From an uncultured Lachnospiraceae bacterium (GTDB lineage: Bacteria > Bacillota > Clostridia > Lachnospirales > Lachnospiraceae): 42,914 nucleotides of DNA. Positions 5,123 through 42,914 of the stretch are shown piece by piece. The stretch is taken from NCBI GenBank assembly GCA_947650005.1, contig CANSTU010000021.1:1-42914 (forward strand), read 5' to 3'. The notes beneath the pieces were generated by a model. It did no database searches. It saw only the letters and a list, made by a program, of their open reading frames with translations, and was not told the DNA's origin. The number at the start of each line of letters is the position of its first letter. Within the stretch, counting starts at the first letter, position 1. Position numbers and translations under genes: made by a program.

Positions 5123-6016
5123 ATGAAAGAGATAAGAGGAATTATTCCTCCTGTGATCACGCCCATGTATGAGGATGGGGCGGTCAATGAGGAGGAGTTG
5201 GCGAATCAGGTGGAACGGCTGATCGGAGCCGGCGTGCATGGGATCTTTGCCTTCGGAACCAACGGAGAGGGCTATATCTTGGATGAGGAGGAAAAGGAGA
5301 GGGTTCTTTCCATCGTCATTCGGACGACTGCGGGGAGAGTGCCCGTCTATGCGGGAACCGGATGTATTTCCACGAGGGATACTATCCGGATGAGCCGTAT
5401 GGCGGAAGAGATGGGAGCGGACATCCTGTCCATCATTACGCCTTCCTTTGCAGCGGCTTCTCAGGAGGAACTCTACCTCCATTATAAGAAAGTGGCGGAG
5501 GCGGTGAGTATGCCGATCGTGTTGTACAATATTCCCGCCAGAACCGGGAACTCCTTGGCGCCTGCTACGGTGGCGAGGCTGGCTGAGATCGACAACATCG
5601 TGGGAGCAAAGGACAGCAGCGGAAATTTTGACAACATGCTTCAATATATCGAACTGACGCGCAACCGGGAATTTGCGGTGCTTTCAGGAAACGATTCCCT
5701 GATCCTGTGGAATCTCTTGGCCGGGGGCGCAGGCAGTATCTCGGGATGTGCCAACGTATTTCCGGAAAACATGGTGGCCATCTATGAGAACTTCGTGAAA
5801 GGGGATATGGAGGGAGCCAGAAAGGCGCAGGATGCGATCCGCAGCTTCCGCAATACGTTCCGGTACGGAAATCCCAACACGGTGGTGAAGACGGCGGTGG
5901 AGCTGTTGGGCTATCCCGTGGGAAAATGCCGCAGCCCGTTCCACCTCATCTGCGAGGAAGGGATTTGCGCCATCAGGCAGGTGCTGGAAGCGTGTAAGGA
6001 AGCAGGAATCAGATAA
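5123..6016 (+). CDS. DapA-family aldolase/lyase
   Basis: This is a (beta/alpha)8 Schiff-base enzyme of the dihydrodipicolinate synthase / N-acetylneuraminate lyase superfamily, 297 residues. The pyruvate-binding loop reads GTNGEG (canonical GTTGE). The catalytic tyrosine is in VLYNIPARTG and the Schiff-base lysine in VGAKDSSGN. The frame extends back to 5057 inside the repeat array, but the ATG at 5123 has GGGAG five bases before it and matches the family N-terminus. Its place between a dehydrogenase and a PdxA2-type gene in a sugar-acid operon argues against lysine biosynthesis and for aldol cleavage or dehydration of a keto-deoxy sugar acid. The actual substrate is unknown. Confidence 0.85.
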   Translation: MKEIRGIIPPVITPMYEDGAVNEEELANQVERLIGAGVHGIFAFGTNGEGYILDEEEKERVLSIVIRTTAGRVPVYAGTGCISTRDTIRMSRMAEEMGADILSIITPSFAAASQEELYLHYKKVAEAVSMPIVLYNIPARTGNSLAPATVARLAEIDNIVGAKDSSGNFDNMLQYIELTRNREFAVLSGNDSLILWNLLAGGAGSISGCANVFPENMVAIYENFVKGDMEGARKAQDAIRSFRNTFRYGNPNTVVKTAVELLGYPVGKCRSPFHLICEEGICAIRQVLEACKEAGIR

Positions 6017-6036
6017 GATAAGGAGGCGGGGAATTT

Positions 6037-7149
6037 ATGAAACCCATTATCGGGATTACGATGGGAGATCCTTCTGGAAACGGGCCGGAGATCAGCATCA
6101 AAGCGCTGTTGGATCCGAAGGCCTATGAACGCTGTAATCCATTGGTGATCGGCGACGCGGCTTGTCTGGAAGAAGCGGTTAAGGCAGTGGGGGCCGAAGG
6201 GAAGATCAGGATCAATCCTGTAAAGAGGCCGGAGGACGCCGAATTTTGCTACGGATGCGTAGATGTGTTGGATATGGGCCAGGTTGACATGGGCAAGAGG
6301 CTGTTCCGGAAGGACAGAAACGCTTTGGCGCAGACTATGTCCGCGGAAAAGCTGGCGGAGGCGTATGAAGAAAGCGACCGTATGTGTGGGGAAGCGGCTT
6401 TCCAGTACGTGAAGGAAGTGATCGAGCTGGCTATGGCCGGAAAAGTGGATGCCACAGTGACCAATGCCCTGAACAAGGATCATATCAATCTGGCTGGCCA
6501 TCACTATTCGGGGCACACTGAAATATATGCACATTATACCGGGACGGAGCATTATACCATGATGTTGGCCCATGAAGGGCTGAGAGTGGTACACGTTTCC
6601 ACCCATGTATCCCTGAGTGAGGCATGCAGACGCGTGAAAAAGGACAGGGTACTGGAGGTGATTCGGATTGCTGATGCAGGATGCCGGGCGCTAGGGATTG
6701 AGAAGCCTAAGATCGGTGTTGCCGGATTGAATCCGCATTGTGGGGAAAACGGCATGTTCGGCCGGGAGGAGATTGAAGAGATCCAGCCGGCAATAGATGA
6801 GGCCATGGCGGAAGGCATCTGCATTCCAGAAGGGAAACCTACCCCGCCGGATACCGTATTTTCCAAGGCGCTGGGCGGTTGGTATGACATTGTGGTGGTT
6901 ATGTACCATGATCAGGGGCATATCCCGCTTAAGGTGAAGGGATTTGTCTATAATAAGGATTTGAAGAAATGGGATGCGGTGGCGGGGATCAACGTAACGT
7001 TGGGCCTTCCCATCATTAGGGCTTCCGTGGATCACGGCACCGGAGAGGGACATGCCGGCGATGGAAGCGCCAATGAACTGAGCCTGGTGAATGCAATCGA
7101 TTATGCGATCCGCATGGCAGAGGCAGGTGCGAATAAGGACCGTTCTTGA
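6037..7149 (+). CDS. PdxA2-type 4-phospho-acid dehydrogenase
   Basis: This belongs to the 4-hydroxythreonine-4-phosphate dehydrogenase superfamily. In DUF1537 loci these enzymes oxidise D-threonate or D-erythronate 4-phosphate, with decarboxylation to dihydroxyacetone phosphate. Visible motifs are the N-terminal ITMGDPSGNGPEI, the metal-site histidines in SGHTEIYA, VSTHVSL and MYHDQGHIP, and a DHGTGEGHAGDGSAN tail. It is 370 residues long, somewhat longer than classical PdxA. AAGGAGG precedes the ATG and the gene follows the aldolase by 20 bases. Because the kinase is in the same operon, catabolism is far likelier than vitamin B6 synthesis. Confidence 0.88.
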   Translation: MKPIIGITMGDPSGNGPEISIKALLDPKAYERCNPLVIGDAACLEEAVKAVGAEGKIRINPVKRPEDAEFCYGCVDVLDMGQVDMGKRLFRKDRNALAQTMSAEKLAEAYEESDRMCGEAAFQYVKEVIELAMAGKVDATVTNALNKDHINLAGHHYSGHTEIYAHYTGTEHYTMMLAHEGLRVVHVSTHVSLSEACRRVKKDRVLEVIRIADAGCRALGIEKPKIGVAGLNPHCGENGMFGREEIEEIQPAIDEAMAEGICIPEGKPTPPDTVFSKALGGWYDIVVVMYHDQGHIPLKVKGFVYNKDLKKWDAVAGINVTLGLPIIRASVDHGTGEGHAGDGSANELSLVNAIDYAIRMAEAGANKDRS

Positions 7150-7254
7150 CATACGGCTTTCATTGATACAGATTCAACGGATTGATCCTGGCGCAGGTAT
7201 GAGCCCTGTGCCTGATCATAGATAACTGTTCATATGTAAAAGGAGGACAAAGTG

Positions 7255-8934
7255 ATGAAGAAACAGAAGTTCTTATCCCTTTTTCTGGCGCTCGCAATGA
7301 CAGCGGCGACTTTGACAGGCTGCGGGTCCGGAAGCGGGAACACAGATTCCAGCACGGATTCTGCTGCGACGGAAAGCGCGCCTGCGGAAACGACGGAAGA
7401 GTCTGCAGAGACGGAAGAAGAAGGAAGCGAAACCCCTGCAGAGGGAGAGGAAGTGGCCGATGGTTATGTGGGCGAAGGCGGTTCCTTCAGCATGTATCTG
7501 CGTGCCACGTTCATCGACTGGATCAACGACCTGGAGTGGTATAAGGAAGCGGAGAAGAGAACGGGCGTAACCGTGGAATACCAGAAGGGTACCGATTCGG
7601 AAGAGGATGTTTATTCGGAAGTGGACCAGCTGGTGCTGAGCAATACTTTGACAGACTGCACCATGTGCAGACAGGCCCAGGCGAACGTATACGGCGCACA
7701 GGGCGCGTTCTACGATCTCAGGCCTCTGATCGATGAGTATGCACCCCATATCAAGGCCTATTTGGAAGCCAATCCGGATTATGAAGCTCTGGTAACCAAC
7801 AGCGATGGTTCCATCTATGGACTGCTGGTGGAAGACGCTCTGAAGAGCAGCTTCATCTTCTACCGCCAGGATCATTTTGACAAAGCTGGCGTGGATGTGG
7901 CTTCCGTCAAGACGATAGATGATTTTACAGATGCGCTGCGTAAACTGAAGGAGCATTACAGCGACGTGCCTAACTATTATCCTTTGCAGGGACGTGAAGC
8001 TGTGATCCGCTTCCAGGCCTTCTTCAATGCTGCGAACAGCATTTCTGCAGAAGAATCCAATGGTTTCTACTTTAATAACGTAGACGTCGGATATGATATT
8101 CATGCGGATGGGGCCTATACAATGGTTGAGACCATGAAGACCTGGTATGATGAAGGGCTGATCAATCCGGAATGGGTTGCCGGCGCATTCTCTGAAGGCG
8201 ACTGGGAAGCGGCCATGTGGGAAGGAAGAGGTTCTGTGAGCTTCGACTTCTATACCAGACCCGCTGCGTTCAACCTGGAAGGAAAGAACTACGATCCTGA
8301 TTATAACATGGCAGTCATGGATTACCTAGTGGATGATGCCGGTAACCCGCTGCAGGTACAGACGCCGCCTAAATATAACCAGAGAAGGGCTACCGTCATC
8401 AACGCCCAGGCTTCCGAAGAGACGGCGAAGACGATCATCCAGTTCATCGATTATTTCTACAGTGACGAAGGACAGACCCTGGCCAACTGGGGCGTGGAAG
8501 GCGTGAGCTACGAAGAGGGAGCTGACGGAAGAAAATATCTGATCAGCTATGACGACGAGCTGGCTAAGCCTGACGGCGAGATGGAATGGAGCTTCTTAAG
8601 TGACCGTTACACGGTCTGCAAACCGCTGGATCCCACAGCGTTCTTCTCCTTCAATGCGGATATCGTAAGGGATGCGGCATTGAAACTGTTCGATGACGAT
8701 CATTTGCAGTACGGAATCAACATCAACTATACGGATGAACAATCCGAAGAGCTGACCTCCATCATCGCTTCCCTGAAAGAAAGTTGTGATGCGGGCATCA
8801 TTTCCTTCATCATGGGAAGGACCGAGTTGAACGAGGCGAACTGGCAGGCGTTCCTGGATGAAATGGACGCGGCAGGTTATACCAGGATGGAAGAACTCCA
8901 GCTGGAAGCTTACAAGAACACTTATGGGAACTGA
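7255..8934 (+). CDS. extracellular solute-binding lipoprotein, CUT1 importer 1
   Basis: This is a sugar-binding protein of the LipO/YtcQ class, 559 residues. A type II signal peptide ends in the lipobox LTGC, so it should be a lipid-anchored surface protein. A Ser/Thr/Glu/Ala-rich linker (about 25-65) leads to the binding domain. GTG at 7252 is also possible; the ATG at 7255 lies eight bases after AGGAGG. It is followed by two permease genes without an ATPase gene. It should capture the oligosaccharide or sugar acid that feeds the upstream enzymes. A strong hairpin directly after the gene may raise its transcript level over the permeases. Confidence 0.88.
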   Translation: MKKQKFLSLFLALAMTAATLTGCGSGSGNTDSSTDSAATESAPAETTEESAETEEEGSETPAEGEEVADGYVGEGGSFSMYLRATFIDWINDLEWYKEAEKRTGVTVEYQKGTDSEEDVYSEVDQLVLSNTLTDCTMCRQAQANVYGAQGAFYDLRPLIDEYAPHIKAYLEANPDYEALVTNSDGSIYGLLVEDALKSSFIFYRQDHFDKAGVDVASVKTIDDFTDALRKLKEHYSDVPNYYPLQGREAVIRFQAFFNAANSISAEESNGFYFNNVDVGYDIHADGAYTMVETMKTWYDEGLINPEWVAGAFSEGDWEAAMWEGRGSVSFDFYTRPAAFNLEGKNYDPDYNMAVMDYLVDDAGNPLQVQTPPKYNQRRATVINAQASEETAKTIIQFIDYFYSDEGQTLANWGVEGVSYEEGADGRKYLISYDDELAKPDGEMEWSFLSDRYTVCKPLDPTAFFSFNADIVRDAALKLFDDDHLQYGININYTDEQSEELTSIIASLKESCDAGIISFIMGRTELNEANWQAFLDEMDAAGYTRMEELQLEAYKNTYGN

Positions 8935-35346: not shown

Positions 35347-36609
35347 ATGTTGATACAATTTCGTTTCAAAAATTTTAAATCTTTTAGAGATGATACGATT
35401 TTAGACCTTTCTGCTACTAAAATTACGGAATATTCTGACAGGATTATTTCTGCAGGATATGAAAAACTATTGCCTACAGCAGCTATTTTTGGTGCAAATG
35501 CAAGTGGTAAATCAAATGTGATTGAAGCTTTTCGTTATATGATGACTTATGTGATAGAGTCTTTTTCATATGGTGGAGATCCGGATGATAAAAAAACGAA
35601 AAGCAAAAAATTGAAATATACGCCTTTTTTGTTTGATAGCAAAAGCAGGGATGCTGAATCTTCTTTCGAAGTTTACTTTATGGATACGCAAGAACATGGG
35701 TATAAATCATACAACTACGGATTTACACTGAATCAGGATGGTGTTATTGAAGAATGGTTAAATTCAAAAGCCAAGACTGCCCGGGAGTATAAACAAGTTT
35801 TTTATCGCAACGTAGATGAACTGGATTTGTCAGGACTTCCCGCTAAGAGCCAGGAACTTATTCGAATTTCTTTGAATAAAGAAGCACTTATTGTTTCTTT
35901 GGGTGCAAAACTAAAAGTTATGAAATTGAAATCCCTTCGAGACTGGTTCTATAAGACAAATTTTGCCAATTTCGGAAATCCATATGAGAACGTTTTTCTT
36001 TCTTCTCTCATTCCAGAGGGTTTTGCAGAAAATAAATCTGTTCAAGATAAAGTTGTTGCTTATCTTTCATCCTTTGATTCATCTATTATGGGATTTCATG
36101 TTGAGGTTATGAAAGGTGAAGATGAAGATCGCAGGCATGTTAAAATAGACGCGATTCATCGTATGGTTAACGGTGGAACAGCCTCTATACCATTGGCGGA
36201 GGAATCCGATGGAACCTTGAAAATGTTTGCACTCTACCCTGCTTTGCAAGACACTTTGGAAAATGGTGGAGTGTTGTTTGTTGATGAATTGAATGCCAGA
36301 TTGCATCCTTTGTTAGTTAGAAGCTTTTTGATTACTTTTTTGAATCCGGAAATCAACTCGAAACATGCCCAATTAGTATTTACAACCTATGATTCCTGGC
36401 AGCTTTCTAATAATCTTCTTCGAAGAGATGAAATTTGGTTTACTGAAAAAGATGATAGTGGCGTTTCTGCACTTTACTCACTAGCAGATTTTGTGGATGA
36501 GGATGGCATAAAAATTCGTAAAGACGAAAGCTATGAGAAAAACTATTTGCTTGGAAAATACGGTGCGATTCCTACATTGAAATATTTTGACATGTTCAGG
36601 GAGGGATAA
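35347..36609 (+). CDS. RloA-like AAA ATPase (defence system)
   Basis: This is a 420-residue ABC/SMC-type ATPase (AAA_15/AAA_21 group). Walker A is FGANASGKSN (about 48-57). A signature-like EESDGTLKM lies near 285. Walker B is GVLFVDELNARLHP (about 306-319). The family ending LLGKYGAIP is present. The N-terminus MLIQFRFKNFKSFRDD is typical for this group. With the RloB-like gene two bases later it forms the RloAB pair, related to AbiL-type abortive infection. The ATPase is expected to sense phage and control the partner. Its base composition is unlike that of the core genes. Confidence 0.85.
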   Translation: MLIQFRFKNFKSFRDDTILDLSATKITEYSDRIISAGYEKLLPTAAIFGANASGKSNVIEAFRYMMTYVIESFSYGGDPDDKKTKSKKLKYTPFLFDSKSRDAESSFEVYFMDTQEHGYKSYNYGFTLNQDGVIEEWLNSKAKTAREYKQVFYRNVDELDLSGLPAKSQELIRISLNKEALIVSLGAKLKVMKLKSLRDWFYKTNFANFGNPYENVFLSSLIPEGFAENKSVQDKVVAYLSSFDSSIMGFHVEVMKGEDEDRRHVKIDAIHRMVNGGTASIPLAEESDGTLKMFALYPALQDTLENGGVLFVDELNARLHPLLVRSFLITFLNPEINSKHAQLVFTTYDSWQLSNNLLRRDEIWFTEKDDSGVSALYSLADFVDEDGIKIRKDESYEKNYLLGKYGAIPTLKYFDMFREG

Positions 36610-36611
36610 GC

Positions 36612-37271
36612 ATGGCAAAAGCAGATAGAAAAGGAAAACGTAAAGGGAGAGACAATTTTCGCACAAGGGTTCCAGATTTAGGGTATTATTTTATAGTAAC
36701 TGATACAAGGGAAACCGAAGAAAACTATATGTATGGGCTCCGGGACTCTCTCCCTAAGGATTTACAAGGGCGAATTGTAATTAAAGTTTCTAAAGCTAAA
36801 ACAGATGAACTTGTTACTGCATGTAAAGAACAAGCTGCCATGGAACCTCAATATGGAGAACCTTGGATTGTATTTGACCGTGACCGGGTTGTTCATTTTG
36901 ATCAGATTATAGAAACTGCCAAACAGGAAGGGGTTAATGCTGGCTGGTCAAATCCTTGCATTGAGATTTGGTTTGATGCTTACTTTGGAAGAATGCATGG
37001 CTATCAGGATTCTGTTACATGCTGTCGCGAGTTTTCCAATACTTTCGAAAAGAAAACCGGACAGGAATATAAAAAGTCCAGTAAACAGATTTATACGATG
37101 CTGAATCGTTATGGTAATGAGACAGAAGCTATTAGAATAGCAGAATCCCGTCTCGCACAGTATTTGAGAGACGGGATAAACAAGCCATCAGAAATGAGCC
37201 CGTGTACAACGGTACATAGGTTGGTCGATGAAATAAGAGATAAAATAGAAAGGATTACTTCAAATGAGTGA
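36612..37271 (+). CDS. RloB-like protein (putative toprim-type effector)
   Basis: This 219-residue protein matches the RloB family. After a basic N-terminus (KADRKGKRKGRDNFRTR) comes YYFIVTDTRETEENY, where the family usually reads CEGxxTExxY, so the first acidic residue is Asp in place of Glu. The DxD motif is IVFDRDRV, and the SNPCIEIWFDAYF segment is typical. Toprim-like nuclease activity is inferred from these acidic motifs. The gene starts two bases after the ATPase stop, with GGGAGGG inside the ATPase end, so the two are made together. Confidence 0.82.
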   Translation: MAKADRKGKRKGRDNFRTRVPDLGYYFIVTDTRETEENYMYGLRDSLPKDLQGRIVIKVSKAKTDELVTACKEQAAMEPQYGEPWIVFDRDRVVHFDQIIETAKQEGVNAGWSNPCIEIWFDAYFGRMHGYQDSVTCCREFSNTFEKKTGQEYKKSSKQIYTMLNRYGNETEAIRIAESRLAQYLRDGINKPSEMSPCTTVHRLVDEIRDKIERITSNE

Positions 37272-37289: not shown

Positions 37290-37721
37290 TATATATTAGC
37301 AATGCCAATATTGAATTAGAAGGAGAAGGGAACCTTGTACATACAATCTTTTCTGAATTGAGAGAGGATGGTTTGGGGAAACGATCTGATTCAGTTCCTG
37401 TGGAGTTAAAGAATGATGTGTCCGATAAGGGGATGTTTTGAGCGATATGGTTTGGAAAGTGATGTAAAAGATTCTAAAGGGGTATTTCTCTACTTGAGTG
37501 ATTTAATTCCTCACTTCCTTAACTCCCCAAAATGGAATTCCAGTCGTAATATAAACAAAGGTCTCTTAGCTGTAAAACACTTCGGTGATTTGAGTGCTCA
37601 TAATCGGCGATATTTAGCAAAAAAGAGTGATATTGATGGTATGAAAACAGATTTAAGACAAGCATTACAGGAAATCGTATTAACCATTGATTATCTACAT
37701 TGGAAAAAAGATCAAGAATAG
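37290..37721 (+). pseudogene. frameshifted HEPN/DUF4145-like remnant
   Basis: Two frames together give one broken product. The first (about 37290-37440) has no start codon and ends at a TGA. The second (37413-37721) carries GLLAVKHFGDLSAHNRR and a helical end, resembling the C-terminus of DUF4145/HEPN-like proteins. A frame change near 37410-37445 would join them. The N-terminal part is missing. It may be a decayed third component of the RloAB locus. The assignment of the family is tentative. Confidence 0.4.
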
Positions 37722-37725
37722 TAAG

Positions 37726-37769
37726 AAATGCTCAACATCCTTTGATTTATAAGATGTTGAGCATTTTTT
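37726..37769 (+). terminator. terminator of the RloAB unit
   Basis: AAATGCTCAACATC and GATGTTGAGCATTT pair perfectly over 14 bases and end in a run of six T. Confidence 0.9.
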
Positions 37770-38358
37770 GCTGTACTTAATTCCAATATATTAATCACAA
37801 AACCAGTAATTATAGTTGCCTTCATTTTTTAAGTTGTTCTTTATAAATTTGTATTCATGAGCTACATCTAGAATTTAATGTTTATGTAAGGCTGTCGACA
37901 AAACGGTATTTGTAGTACTTTTCTGCAATTAATTAAGTAAAGATCTGAAACCAAAGAAGTTTTTTTACACGTTGTTTTTATATTTTATGGAGCAAATTGT
38001 ATATAAAATTTCGGTGATAATACTTGTGAATTTAACTGAAATGAAGAAAACTTGTCGAAATTTCGTATGTGTGTGACGGAGATTGTGGCGGCAAGATTCG
38101 ATAGAGTACGGCAATATAGATTATAAAACGTTAAACAAAACTGTCGAATGAATAGAGATTAATAAAGAATTATAAGCACTTTTTAACATAGCCCAAATTA
38201 TGGGAAATAGAAAATTGTCAAATAACTTCTAAAAACAATGACTTTTTAGAAGTTATTTGATATTATATGAGCAGTATATATCTTAAATTTGAGTGTAAGT
38301 ATTACTTTCGGTCCCAGAAGATATATGATTCTAGCAGAGAGGATGTGAATCGATAAAC
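37770..38358. other. about 590 bp A/T-rich gap between defence units
   Basis: No gene is recognised. TGTCGA occurs three times (37893, 38053, 38142). A perfect 18-bp inverted repeat lies at 38218-38260 and a weak promoter at 38302-38329 (TTACTT, 16 bases, TATGAT). Confidence 0.5.
38218..38260. repeat. perfect 18-bp inverted repeat upstream of the Dam gene
   Basis: The arm TCAAATAACTTCTAAAAA pairs perfectly with TTTTTAGAAGTTATTTGA around CAATGAC. It may be a bidirectional terminator or a binding site for a control protein. It lies about 100 bases before the Dam start. Confidence 0.7.
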
Positions 38359-39183
38359 GTGCATCCATTTTTAAAATGGCCAGGAGGAAAAAGATGGTTG
38401 ATTGCAAATTACCGACACATTTTTCCTGCCGAATACAATCGCTATTATGAACCGTTTCTCGGTGGTGGATCCGCTTTTTTTTCCTTAATACCAAAACAAG
38501 CCACCATATCCGATATCAACGGTGAATTAATCAATACATATCGTGTTATGGCAAGAAATCCAGAACAGCTCCGTGAGCAATTAATTCAACATCAAGAGCA
38601 TCATTCGGCTACTCATTACTATGCTGTAAGAGCGAATGTGCCTAATAATGCTGTTGAGCGTGCCGCCAGATTTCTTTATTTAAATAGGGCATGTTTTAAT
38701 GGCATGTACCGTGTTAATCGTTTAGGAGAGTTCAATGTGCCCATTGGCACGAAACAACAGTTTATTGATGATGTACAGCAGTTTGAAGAATATTCTGAAG
38801 CGTTACACAGTGTCCACATACGAAAACAGGATTTTGTTGATACAATACGTGAAGCGACCGTTGGCGATCTTGTTTTTGCTGATCCGCCTTACACAATAGC
38901 ACACAATCAAAACGCTTTTATTAAGTATAATGAGAAACTATTTTCATGGAAAGATCAAAAGCGCTTGCTTAATGCTTTGACACGAGCAAGAGATAGAGGT
39001 GCAATCATTATTGCAACTAATACTAATTATCCACCTTTACAACAGATGTATGATGATAACTACTTTTATACACAAGCCTTACATAGGTTCAGTTCAATAT
39101 CTGGGCTGGCGGCCGGACGAGGTACACAGAAAGAGTTGTTGGTATCTTCATACCCTATTAACTTACAGGAGGAAAGACGATGA
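38359..39183 (+). CDS. D12-class (Dam-like) DNA adenine methyltransferase
   Basis: This is an N6-adenine methyltransferase of 274 residues. The AdoMet motif FLKWPGGK stands at the N-terminus and the catalytic DPPY near residue 174 (VFADPPYTIAHNQ). RYYEPFLGGGSAFF is also typical. GATC is the usual target of the class, but the target of this enzyme is unproven. It starts with GTG at 38359. The frame is open only to 38335 and offers no other start, and GAGG lies rather far upstream. The end overlaps the HerA gene by ATGA. It would mark host DNA for the HerA-NurA pair. Confidence 0.88.
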   Translation: MHPFLKWPGGKRWLIANYRHIFPAEYNRYYEPFLGGGSAFFSLIPKQATISDINGELINTYRVMARNPEQLREQLIQHQEHHSATHYYAVRANVPNNAVERAARFLYLNRACFNGMYRVNRLGEFNVPIGTKQQFIDDVQQFEEYSEALHSVHIRKQDFVDTIREATVGDLVFADPPYTIAHNQNAFIKYNEKLFSWKDQKRLLNALTRARDRGAIIIATNTNYPPLQQMYDDNYFYTQALHRFSSISGLAAGRGTQKELLVSSYPINLQEERR

Positions 39184-41177
39184 ATACGTTGACGGGCCTC
39201 ATTGACAGGTCAATTTATCAGGACAACCCCATTTCTGTGTTAATGTCCTTTATTGAACAAGAGAAACGACATAAGAATGCGCGTGAAGTCGAGAAAATGC
39301 GCTTTATAGGTTATGTATTGGAGTTAGGGTTTGACAGAGCAAAAATCATTACCTCTGATCAATACAAGATTATAGTTGGCGGCGTTCCAAGAGGTTCTTT
39401 TTTGATTATGGTTCCCAGCGAGTTCGGAAGCGCGCCTCCCCATTTTTCATTGCTCCGCGTCAGAGGCGTCTCGACTACACCATTGAGCAGCCAAGTTCAA
39501 CAAACTTATTTTGAGCTACATAAAAAGGCTATGCCAGAGCTTGACATTTGGACACAAAACGAACTTCAATGGGGTGCTTTGGAGTGCGATGTATTAGGCA
39601 TGTTTTATGCAAATCCCAAGGCTTCCAGTAAACTAGAGTTTTCAGGAGACGTGAATAACATAGTAAGTGCCCACAGATATGAAGTCTATGCTCCCAGTGA
39701 TGAGCTGTTAAAGGTAATCATAAATGGCATTGTACCGGAAAAATCCAGATTTGAACTAGGTGATCTACGCACAATGGAATGTCGGCTAATTGAAGGTGAT
39801 ATTACTTCAAGTATTATTCCGGTGTATGTATCAATGGAGGATTTTAAGGGACGTCGTACAGCCATGTTTGGTAAAACAAGATTGGGCAAATCCAACGTAG
39901 TCAAACTTCTTGCTCAAGGGATGATTAATGCAACGAATGGACTGCCCAATGATCAAACTGTTGGACAACTGATTTTTGATATAAACGGAGAATATGCTAA
40001 TGACAACCCGCAGGATGGTAATAAATCTTTGCGCTCATCTAATGAGAACCGTTGTATCGTATATGCGCTCACTCCGCGAGAAGGAACTCCATCAGAAGTT
40101 CTTCGTATGAACTTCTATGAATACCCTTCTGCAGGACTTGGACTATTAGCATCTTTTCTTAGTACTGATAAAAGAAATTCGATTTATATTACAAGTTTCA
40201 CAAGTTCAGCTATTATAGACTTTGATGAATTGGAATTGCTGGAAGAGGGTGACAAAACTAGAGCAGCAAGAAAAATATTGTTTTATTGGGCTATCTTGAA
40301 AAAAGCTGGGTATCCTGCGGATGAGAGAAAAATTCGTTCTATGGTTAAGAGTAGAAATGCAACTGGATTTGATCCCGGCTTTGGAGAAAAACTTCGTATG
40401 GCAGCTCATGGCGTGGCAGATCCGAGAATGCTACCGGATGTAAATTCTTTAGATGCACTTGTCGAAGAGTTGGGCAAGATAAATGCCTTTCGACTGAACC
40501 ACCCAAAGGAAAACGATAAACTTTTCATTACAACCTCTTCAAAAAAGCCGATCTTTGATTCGGATGACTGTGCCTTGCTGGATTTTTTATTCCCAAAGGC
40601 CGGGGCCGGGCCGGACATGATACGTAAGTATCGTATTTATCATGATGCAAGAGCAAGTGACTTCACCGTTGATATTCTGAAATCTTTAGATGAAGGAAAA
40701 ACTGTCATTCTGGACCTTGGTAATGCACAAGATGCTATACGGCAATACTTTTCGGATATTTTATCGATAGCCGTTTTTACTCACCAAGAGCAGAAATTCG
40801 TCAGCAATTCGCTAAAAAGTCATTATATACAGCTTTATTTTGAAGAGGCACACAACTTGTTCCCGGTAACATCAAATAGTATGGCAGATATTTATTCCCG
40901 TTTCGCGAAAGAAGGTGCCAAATTCCATATTGGAATGATTTATTCCACACAGTCACCGTCAACGATTAGTAAGGAACTGTTGGCGCAGACTGAAAACTTT
41001 TTTGTAGGGCATCTTTCATCACAGGATGAAGCTCATGCTCTTGCGCGTTTGCAGGTTGCCTTTGACGGGATTGAGCAAGATATTTTGCGTGCAAAAACAC
41101 CTGGATTTATGCGGATGCTTACAATGTCGAACCGATTTGTTGTTCCGGTTCAGGCTAAATTATATGAGGGAGTTTAA
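39180..41177 (+). CDS. HerA-like hexameric ATPase/DNA translocase
   Basis: This is a 665-residue FtsK/HerA-superfamily motor. The N-terminal HAS-barrel-like segment (EKMRFIGYVLELGFDRAKII) is followed by Walker A GKTRLGKSN near residue 230, LIFDINGEYA near 265, and Walker B LYFEEAHNLFP near 555. IGMIYSTQSPSTISKELL is the typical HerA sensor region. AGGAGG lies six bases before the ATG, which overlaps the Dam stop. HerA proteins drive DNA through a bound NurA nuclease in end resection and in several bacterial defence systems. Confidence 0.88.
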   Translation: MNTLTGLIDRSIYQDNPISVLMSFIEQEKRHKNAREVEKMRFIGYVLELGFDRAKIITSDQYKIIVGGVPRGSFLIMVPSEFGSAPPHFSLLRVRGVSTTPLSSQVQQTYFELHKKAMPELDIWTQNELQWGALECDVLGMFYANPKASSKLEFSGDVNNIVSAHRYEVYAPSDELLKVIINGIVPEKSRFELGDLRTMECRLIEGDITSSIIPVYVSMEDFKGRRTAMFGKTRLGKSNVVKLLAQGMINATNGLPNDQTVGQLIFDINGEYANDNPQDGNKSLRSSNENRCIVYALTPREGTPSEVLRMNFYEYPSAGLGLLASFLSTDKRNSIYITSFTSSAIIDFDELELLEEGDKTRAARKILFYWAILKKAGYPADERKIRSMVKSRNATGFDPGFGEKLRMAAHGVADPRMLPDVNSLDALVEELGKINAFRLNHPKENDKLFITTSSKKPIFDSDDCALLDFLFPKAGAGPDMIRKYRIYHDARASDFTVDILKSLDEGKTVILDLGNAQDAIRQYFSDILSIAVFTHQEQKFVSNSLKSHYIQLYFEEAHNLFPVTSNSMADIYSRFAKEGAKFHIGMIYSTQSPSTISKELLAQTENFFVGHLSSQDEAHALARLQVAFDGIEQDILRAKTPGFMRMLTMSNRFVVPVQAKLYEGV

Positions 41178-41192
41178 CTTGGAGGTGGAAGC

Positions 41193-42524
41193 ATGGCGTA
41201 TTCCTCAACTGGAAAACTACCCGATGAACATGCCTCAAAATTAGGTCACTTGTCAGTTATCCAGAGCCAATGGGTACAATCACTGATAGAAGATTTTGAG
41301 GATAATCAATCTCGGGAGACAGACTACGATATGTCTTTATGGCATGATTTCGATGTGGGTCAATTAGAAAAACTAAAGTATATTTGGGCTGTTGACGGCT
41401 CTTTTGTTTCTGTAAAAACAAACCCGACTACGGGTAAGGAAGTTGCATTTATAAAGACTGCTTTGATTTCTGTTGATAAAAAGAATCTGGAGAAGATTGA
41501 CAAGAAAAATCCACATCCACTCTTGCTACAAGACATTATGGCTGGTAGTGCTTTATTTCATGCAACTGTTTTACCGCTGAAAAATGTAAAAACGAGTTTA
41601 GGCAGCAACTATGATGCAATTCGGCATATTATATACGACTCTATGCGTGTCGATGAGGATGGTCAGTATTTTCAGACACTCAAGTGGCTTTCATACAAAA
41701 AGTGGGAAGACAGCAAAGGTTGCTCTCCAAAGTTTGATTGCCCTCATTGCTCCAATGAGATCCCAGGATTACCATATGATTCATCAAAAGGTGAATGCCC
41801 TCACTGCCACAAAGAAGTGCTATTGACTGACATGATAGGGTTTCATCTTGATATGGAGGAAGATAGTGCTTCCGAAAAAATAGTATCCTCCTATATGCTT
41901 TTGATGGAACATCTAATGCTATTTACAATTGTACGACTTATGTGGCATCATACAGATAAAAGTGTTTTTTCGGATACGCTTTTTATAAAGGATGGGCCTT
42001 TAACATTGCGTAGTCAGTATGCGAAGTTTGTTCCCTTAATCCGTGATTTCATTGAATACACAAAACGAGTGCAAAGGCCCATACATATCATTGGGCAAGA
42101 AAAAAGTGGCGTTTTTCATGATCATCTGACCGTACTTTCCAAATATGTTTCTCCTAAACAATTGGGCGAAACACCTACGGTAGCTGTACTCACTCATGAA
42201 TATGTGAGAAAGGAAGTCTATCGAACAGGAGATCTTGCTAATCCGTATGGCTCAAGAACCAATTGGGGCGAAAAGGTATATGTTAAGTTGGAGCCCGATA
42301 CCTCACTTGTCTTAAATATTCCAACAGGAAAATATAACGAGAATCCACAATTTCCGAAACAGGATGATCTTGTCGGGTTAGAGCGCATAATGGCAACTCT
42401 CCCAGATTTGATCAGCAGGAGACATGAAGGGGCATTGTTTCCGGTAGAACTAGCTAATGGAGTAGCATCAATGTCCAGCTATCCATCAGCGAAAATATTA
42501 CAGCGCTTTATTGAAAGCAAATAA
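41193..42524 (+). CDS. NurA-domain nuclease with a zinc ribbon
   Basis: This is a 443-residue nuclease of the NurA type. The N-terminal metal-site Asp is in WAVDGSF near residue 67, and a later acidic site is FIKDGPL near 266. Further segments (IIGQEKSG, NPYGSRTNWGEKVYVKLE) fit the family. Between them a CPHC...CPHC zinc ribbon (about 183-208) is inserted, which archaeal NurA lacks. TTGGAGG precedes the ATG, 15 bases after the HerA stop. It should degrade DNA when driven by the HerA ring. Confidence 0.82.
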   Translation: MAYSSTGKLPDEHASKLGHLSVIQSQWVQSLIEDFEDNQSRETDYDMSLWHDFDVGQLEKLKYIWAVDGSFVSVKTNPTTGKEVAFIKTALISVDKKNLEKIDKKNPHPLLLQDIMAGSALFHATVLPLKNVKTSLGSNYDAIRHIIYDSMRVDEDGQYFQTLKWLSYKKWEDSKGCSPKFDCPHCSNEIPGLPYDSSKGECPHCHKEVLLTDMIGFHLDMEEDSASEKIVSSYMLLMEHLMLFTIVRLMWHHTDKSVFSDTLFIKDGPLTLRSQYAKFVPLIRDFIEYTKRVQRPIHIIGQEKSGVFHDHLTVLSKYVSPKQLGETPTVAVLTHEYVRKEVYRTGDLANPYGSRTNWGEKVYVKLEPDTSLVLNIPTGKYNENPQFPKQDDLVGLERIMATLPDLISRRHEGALFPVELANGVASMSSYPSAKILQRFIESK

Positions 42525-42537
42525 GTAATCATGCTAT

Positions 42538-42576
42538 AACAAAAGTCGATGTGTAATTGATACATCGGCTTTTGTT
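42538..42576 (+). terminator. terminator of the Dam-HerA-NurA operon
   Basis: AACAAAAGTCGATGT pairs with ACATCGGCTTTTGTT (one G-U pair). The descending arm ends in a T-rich run. It can also serve the minus strand. Confidence 0.7.
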
Positions 42577-42577
42577 G

Positions 42578-42914
42578 CGGTATGATATAAAAATATTTTT
42601 GTCGTGGACTTGACATATGGGTGCCTTAATGTGTGGAAGTGGAAATTCTCTAACTCAGGTACTTTCCTTGCCGCTGTCCGGCAGGCTGTTTCTACGGTGG
42701 CGGGAAGTTCCAGACAGCCATCTTTCCTCAGACATACAAAGGAGATTTTAAGCTGCTGTTTCTTTGAGTTTTTCAAGATGTCAGCAAGGGTATTGCCAAA
42801 GATCAACAATCCACACTTTCTGCCGCTTTGTAGGACCTATCTCATGTTTATGGGTAGCCCCGTTGTAACGGACGCTCCTGCGGACTGTCAGATATTGTTC
42901 CTCAAGGTTGATGT
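42578..42914 (-). pseudogene. broken tyrosine recombinase (integrase), 3' part
   Basis: Read on the minus strand, the window edge begins INLEEQYLTVRRSVRYNG and EIGPTKRQKVWIVD, typical of integrases of Firmicutes elements. A one-base insertion near 42821 shifts the frame; the other frame goes on with FGNTLADILKNSKKQQ. Further on, FHFHTLRHPYVK contains the H-x-L-R-H box, but the sequence then jumps to STTKIFLYH, which resembles the STTMNIYAH end of the family. The helix with the GHSDV motif and the region of the catalytic Tyr are damaged. It is a dead integrase at the edge of the defence island, and it continues beyond the window. Confidence 0.75.

Follow-up and report, generated by a model that had tools for sequence, protein, structure and literature searches.

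The 42.9 kb contig C21 of an uncultured Lachnospiraceae bacterium (GenBank CANSTU010000021.1) carries a three-gene operon that couples a D12-class adenine methyltransferase to a HerA-type motor ATPase and a NurA-like nuclease, and we consider it probable that this trio is a compact restriction-modification system of the Tdp type in which a methyl mark stands in place of the sulphur mark. The window of our analysis is this entire contig (42,914 nucleotides), part of a 3.59 Mb draft genome. A preliminary description of this DNA had read a tight three-gene operon here, and the open reading frames (ORFs) bear it out, with a 4-base ATGA overlap between the methyltransferase and HerA genes and a gap of 15 bases between the HerA and nuclease genes:

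38359..39183, + strand: writer, D12-class adenine methyltransferase (ORF of 274 aa with a GTG start; Pfam and NCBIfam matches)
39180..41177, + strand: motor, HerA/FtsK-type ATPase, TdpA-like (ORF of 665 aa; Pfam, PDB profile and fold search)
41193..42524, + strand: nuclease, NurA-like and TdpB-like (ORF of 443 aa; AlphaFold model and invariant columns)

The D12-HerA-NurA trio is a genuine unit of three genes, both conserved and widespread. A scan with a HerA alignment over one genome per species gave 434 pattern matches, 388 of which encode a relative, and our survey covers the best 80. In 76 of these 80 nearest HerA relatives the gene directly upstream, on the same strand, encodes a D12 methyltransferase; L100 and L102 are cut at a contig edge, L063 has its D12 gene two genes upstream (350 bits), and L101 is weighed below. 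The nuclease lies directly downstream in 76/80 (73 initially, and L038, L039 and L065 with longer frames), and in the remaining four (L070, L075, L082 and L088) the HerA gene reaches the contig end. The genes are closely packed, with a median intergenic gap of about 3 bases; 20/76 have a 4-base overlap, starts being taken as the first possible ones. D12 matches number between 1 and 4 per genome in the five genomes searched and are present in 4 of 14 control genomes, so the adjacency cannot be due to chance. The preliminary description had named conservation of the trio elsewhere as the check on its proposal, and the trio indeed recurs in many bacterial phyla and in archaea (19 phyla among the 76 phylum-labelled rows, with 6 archaeal rows). 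A phage collection searched for relatives gave no match.

Three protein families and their Tdp relatives

Sequence or predicted fold places each of the three proteins in its family, with catalytic motifs intact. The methyltransferase matches Pfam MethyltransfD12 (6e-47) and the NCBIfam dam subfamily (2e-67), both above cut-off, and its nearest PDB relatives are DpnM (2dpm, 4.6e-54) and then EcoDam (7e-25), in agreement with the Dam-type methylase first proposed. The catalytic DPPY (residues 175-178) is kept in 77/77 rows and R118 in 76/76, the window included in both counts; R118 aligns with EcoDam R124, which we take to be a DNA-contacting residue. The methyltransferases split into two recognition classes, N (48 rows) and K (28 rows), with one row unreadable (L067). 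Class N has the signature FNG..RVN..FNVP, which the rows of DpnM and Dam also show, and class K has K and G at those two signature places, mostly as FKGMWRHN. Kurthia huakuii (L073) carries a class N enzyme and Meiothermus hypogaeus (L061) a class K one. The window copy, which is the sole D12 match in its draft genome, belongs to class N (FNGMYRVN..FNVP), and GATC would be its likeliest target site.

The motor matches Pfam DUF87 above cut-off (2.1e-11) and has a Walker A motif (GKTRLGKS, residues 231-238) and an FEEAH motif (554-558), each residue of which is found in 80 or 81 of 81 rows. By profile against PDB sequences, TdpA is its best match at 5.6e-37, the next being at 2.5e-14. The fold comparison points the same way: the six top matches of the AlphaFold 2 (AF2) model (predicted local distance difference test, pLDDT, 84.5; alignment of the window and 40 of the 73 listed HerA rows) are chains of TdpAB entries at 2e-28 to 2e-29, with TdpA best at 2.4e-29 (chain 8wet_A carries this name) and the next match at 2.6e-21. 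PADLOC HerA models match the motor weakly (best 7e-19; mad8 model 1.1e-10). The HerA motor of the preliminary description is thus retained, and at 20–21% identity in the fold alignment we regard it as a relative of TdpA, claiming no orthology.

The third protein is harder to place by profile. In Pfam and NCBIfam it has weak Zn-ribbon-type matches (best 0.008), in PADLOC 2023 it has none, and the NurA family PF09376 matches its relative L016 (4e-05; 23.7 bits vs a cut-off of 21) and not the window protein itself. However, three of five plasmid relatives (H1-H3) are annotated NurA, and the AlphaFold model (pLDDT 86.4; 60-row alignment, the window and 59 of the 69 listed NurA rows) has as its PDB fold matches, in order, 8wfd_G and 8wet_G (TdpB, best 2.3e-10), Deinococcus NurA (7f6d) and the Thermotoga putative nuclease TM1739. 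Because annotation and fold agree, we judge the label "NurA-like nuclease", also used in the preliminary description, to be right as far as predicted structure can tell. Residues D68, D213, E239, D267 and K304 are conserved in every row reaching those columns, and all five are common to 26/26 rows including 4 TdpB-like proteins. The window nuclease also carries a Zn-ribbon-like insert (C183/C186/C202/C205), and two CxxC pairs are present in 65/77 rows.

TdpABC, a phosphorothioate-linked antiphage system (PDB 8wet, 8wfd, 8y1k), is therefore the known system closest to the trio, being the best PDB relative of its motor by profile and of its motor and nuclease by fold, and both combine a HerA-type motor, a NurA-like nuclease and a presumed DNA-modifying gene in one run. 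A search of 50 genomes of the Meiothermus hypogaeus family with the HerA profile gave 9 with matches: the Meiothermus trio itself, one weak match (6e-15), and seven TdpA-like matches at 2e-29 or better (one in pieces), whose genomes we take to be Thermus. Five of the seven loci were read, and in all five the run opens with a gene bearing an SGGKDS motif, after which come, on the same strand, a TdpB-like gene and a TdpA-like gene in that order. In L129, the one locus scanned, PAPS_reduct matches the first gene, and the second gene finds TdpB at 1.7e-110. We take this PAPS-reductase-like first gene to be the sulphur-mark writer TdpC. In another of these loci (L133, 2879-5133), the TdpB-like frame is truncated to 265 aa, with other ORFs separating it from the TdpA-like gene, a possible insertion in the nuclease gene. 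The trio differs from the Thermus-family loci in its writer, a D12 methyltransferase rather than a PAPS-reductase-like protein, in its gene order, writer-motor-nuclease rather than writer-nuclease-motor, and in the CxxC insert of its nuclease, which 0/5 TdpB-like proteins show. A TdpAB-like motor and nuclease beside a D12 methyltransferase therefore share the architecture of Tdp, with another writer and another order of genes, and the trio appears to be a methyl-based cousin of the sulphur-mark Tdp system of heat-loving bacteria.

Other known systems share part of this composition. In DpnII-type Type II restriction-modification the methyltransferase is of the kind found here, the window enzyme being closest in PDB to DpnM, but the trio operon has no DpnII-like endonuclease and holds a motor ATPase and a NurA-like nuclease instead. 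SIR2-HerA and HerA-DUF4297 likewise couple a HerA-type motor to an effector (fold matches of about 1e-18 to 1e-21), but in the trio the effector is NurA-like, a DNA writer is present, and Pfam finds no SIR2 or DUF4297 domain in the three proteins. The HerA-NurA pairs of archaea and Deinococcus belong to the same two protein families, and Deinococcus NurA is the third fold match, but the motor and nuclease of the trio are closer to TdpA and TdpB; we know of no methylase member in the studied pairs. In MADS, BREX, DISARM and Dnd-DndFGH a writer marks self DNA, with many more components than the trio has. Some of these have HerA-like ATPases, such as DndH of Dnd (PMC10853773); the term NurA does not occur in that paper. 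PADLOC 2023 assigns the methylase to generic methyltransferase models, the motor to weak HerA models and the nuclease to nothing. The preliminary description knew of no named system with this trio, and we likewise found no exact one in PADLOC 2023, Pfam or NCBIfam, nor any description of it in the open papers searched. The passages seen of PMC11291478, PMC12977600, PMC10853773, PMC12839542, PMC3506569, PMC5737866 and PMC10273834 do not describe it either.

Co-inheritance of the operon and its more distant relatives

A single change of methyltransferase class is needed on each of the HerA (76 rows) and NurA (72 rows) trees, whereas 50 shuffles per tree gave minima of 19 and 17 changes, respectively. 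The operon thus evolves as a unit. Evolutionary distances across 70 loci are also correlated (methyltransferase-HerA 0.74, methyltransferase-NurA 0.72, HerA-NurA 0.90). The L033 methyltransferase is 31–35% identical to those of loci whose HerA proteins are 70–75% identical (15 pairs listed) and at most 38% identical to any in the set, and it still has the class N residues. This single case fits a replaced writer that would have had to keep its target. Residues fixed by class number six in HerA and none in NurA, too few to locate a reader of the mark.

The spread of the operon is patchy. Within the window's taxonomic class, a HerA match at E<=0.001 is present in 14/391 genomes; the window's own genome alone scores about 1000 bits, and only two others are above 350. 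Along the HerA tree (76 labelled rows) there are 33 changes of phylum label vs 47 or more in 100 shuffles, which reveals a phylogenetic signal together with much transfer.

More distant HerA-NurA loci have varied partners. A D12 gene lies beside the pair in five of them, on the opposite strand beyond NurA in L005 and L006 and before HerA in L026, L027 and L166. An N6_N4_Mtase gene is found in four (L007, L015, L019 and L134, the last with a nuclease that was not identified), and a methylase-motif gene, recognized by motif alone, in two or three (L008, L165 and perhaps L021). From this small sample of sequences, the arrangement suggests that HerA-NurA may be a modular mark-reading shredder. In L015, on a Deferribacter megaplasmid, the HerA gene is split by an IS200/IS605-family element (tnpA, TnpB; 5126-8924), and the upstream methylase and downstream NurA frames look whole.

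Proposed mechanism and alternative explanations

The preliminary description had likened the trio to a restriction-modification system. This idea is well supported by homology, given the conserved trio and its TdpA/TdpB kinship in sequence and modelled fold, and through that kinship it gains a mechanism. Carrying the TdpAB mechanism over to a methyl mark is our main inference. In the Tdp system, TdpAB breaks down DNA that lacks the mark and is blocked by phosphorothioates. By analogy, the Dam-like methyltransferase encoded by the first gene would N6-methylate adenine within a short recognition sequence of the host's DNA. The HerA ring, with the NurA-like nuclease docked on it, would load on double-stranded DNA and pump it through. 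Methylated sites would then halt translocation or keep the nuclease off, and unmarked phage or plasmid DNA would be threaded and degraded, a chain of events through which the operon may protect its host from phage.

If this is true, an ordinary Dam-type N6-methyladenine mark can gate a processive ring motor-nuclease, a bridge between classical restriction-modification and the phosphorothioate Tdp machinery. This would account for one place where Dam-like methylases persist in patchily distributed operons, extend a defence role of HerA-NurA beyond heat-loving hosts, and add one more system for defence annotation. The two methyltransferase recognition classes would also provide a means to ask whether the motor recognizes one particular methylated sequence. 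A broader reading, toward which we lean only slightly, is that TdpAB-like HerA-NurA could be a general mark-reading shredder coupled to D12 methyltransferases of two classes, to N6/N4 methylases of the PF01555 kind and to a PAPS-reductase-like sulphur writer. The Dam form would then be a new and widespread class of restriction-modification in which inspection of the mark falls to a translocating ring instead of a site-specific endonuclease.

Several points weigh against a Tdp-type system with a methyl mark. The nuclease model is 12–13% identical to TdpB with a template modelling (TM) score of 0.44-0.64 by entry and normalization, so its chemistry may differ. NurA profiles do not retrieve TdpB from PDB sequences, where Zn-finger and other chance matches appear instead, and in a small-set search one NurA profile reaches two TdpB-like ORFs weakly (5.5e-4 and 1.9e-3) and another reaches none. 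Our survey comprises the 80 closest of 388 HerA relatives. L101 is a HerA-NurA pair with no D12 match on its 9.2 kb contig, and three Nostocales plasmids (L016, L017 and L018) have a small helix-turn-helix regulator followed by HerA and NurA with no adjacent DNA methylase. One ancestral division into two classes is as compatible with plain vertical inheritance of the operon as with functional matching. Not every neighbour of the trio in relatives belongs to defence: L049 has gyrB and L106 has a P-type ATPase nearby, and one of ten large neighbours matched PADLOC at 1e-60.

Three alternatives were considered, none of which we find likely. The trio could be a module for DNA repair or end processing, in which HerA-NurA resects broken ends, a role proposed for its archaeal and Deinococcus counterparts, with the Dam methylase as a strand marker or a regulator of the process. 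The position of Deinococcus NurA (7f6d) as third fold match of the nuclease agrees with this. HerA-NurA has been studied as end-resection machinery (introduction of PMC12977600), but the abstract of that same work doubts resection and proposes an antiviral role. The sporadic spread, with 3/391 genomes of the class above 350 bits (the window's own included) and 33 phylum changes on the HerA tree, also argues against repair, as does the closer relation of the trio to TdpA and TdpB than to repair HerA and NurA; we hold this explanation to be improbable. No more probable in our view is a selfish addiction module, in which loss of the methylase would expose the chromosome to HerA-NurA and phage defence would be a by-product. 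Its patchy spread across phyla, the single tight operon holding writer and cutter, and the L015 locus, where the tnpA-TnpB element cuts the motor gene and leaves the methylase frame whole, speak for addiction. However, this alternative invokes the same machinery as the methyl-marked Tdp-type system and differs in selection rather than mechanism, and L015 is a lone anecdote. Orphan Dam methylases exist, and the three cyanobacterial plasmid pairs and L101, which have no adjacent writer, would suit an orphan regulatory Dam-type methylase that merely neighbours an unrelated HerA-NurA defence pair sensing, for example, free DNA ends, but the 76/80 adjacency and the class-matched evolution of all three genes argue against this, which we hold to be the least probable of the three.

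Genomic neighbourhood and non-coding elements

The operon is flanked in the window by the following features:

35347-37271, just upstream of the trio: AAA_21 ATPase, AbiLi-like (PADLOC 8.7e-88), then a RloB-like protein, AbiLii (PADLOC 8e-20)
38218..38260, strand not assigned: inverted repeat in the operon leader (perfect 18-nt arms, 7-nt loop)
42528..42586, + strand: hairpin 3' of the last gene, probable shared terminator (fold -33 kcal/mol, z -8.4)
42534-42809, - strand, at the contig end: short ORF with a tyrosine-recombinase-like HTLRH motif (Pfam Phage_integrase 0.079)

The preliminary description had given the three genes a shared promoter region and a shared terminator. The strong hairpin at 42528-42586 supports the terminator, although it is absent from the output of the repeat finder and terminator scan of the window. 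The promoter part is unproven: promoter-like consensus matches in 37700-42914 number about what chance predicts (19 observed vs 15.8 expected), so no shared promoter can be claimed. The leader inverted repeat (fold z -5.9) may terminate the gene upstream, or it may be an operator. An inverted repeat exceeding the best of 20 mononucleotide shuffles is present in 7/73 loci, the window counted, and those listed differ by eye, so the repeat does not belong to the conserved elements of the system.

The AbiLi-like and RloB-like genes are likely, from their matches, a second and separate defence pair beside the trio, and the short ORF at the contig end is a possible integrase remnant at the edge of a mobile island. 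Among relatives, in L046, L055 and L057 the trio is directly preceded by a methylase-motif gene (561-614 aa) and by the gene of a larger protein (866-911 aa) that carries a TnsA-like endonuclease domain, possibly a Type III-like pair; the larger proteins have a ResIII match in L046 only and no PADLOC match at 1e-60. L047 and L098 have UvrD helicases as neighbours, and L048 has an AAA protein. In loci with both the methyltransferase and NurA, the nearest flanks gave PADLOC matches to 248 families over 116 proteins (of 123) and the genes 6-9.5 kb away to 59 families over 76 (of 78), the families overlapping. These tallies are only suggestive of linkage to defence islands, for which the overall picture is partial.

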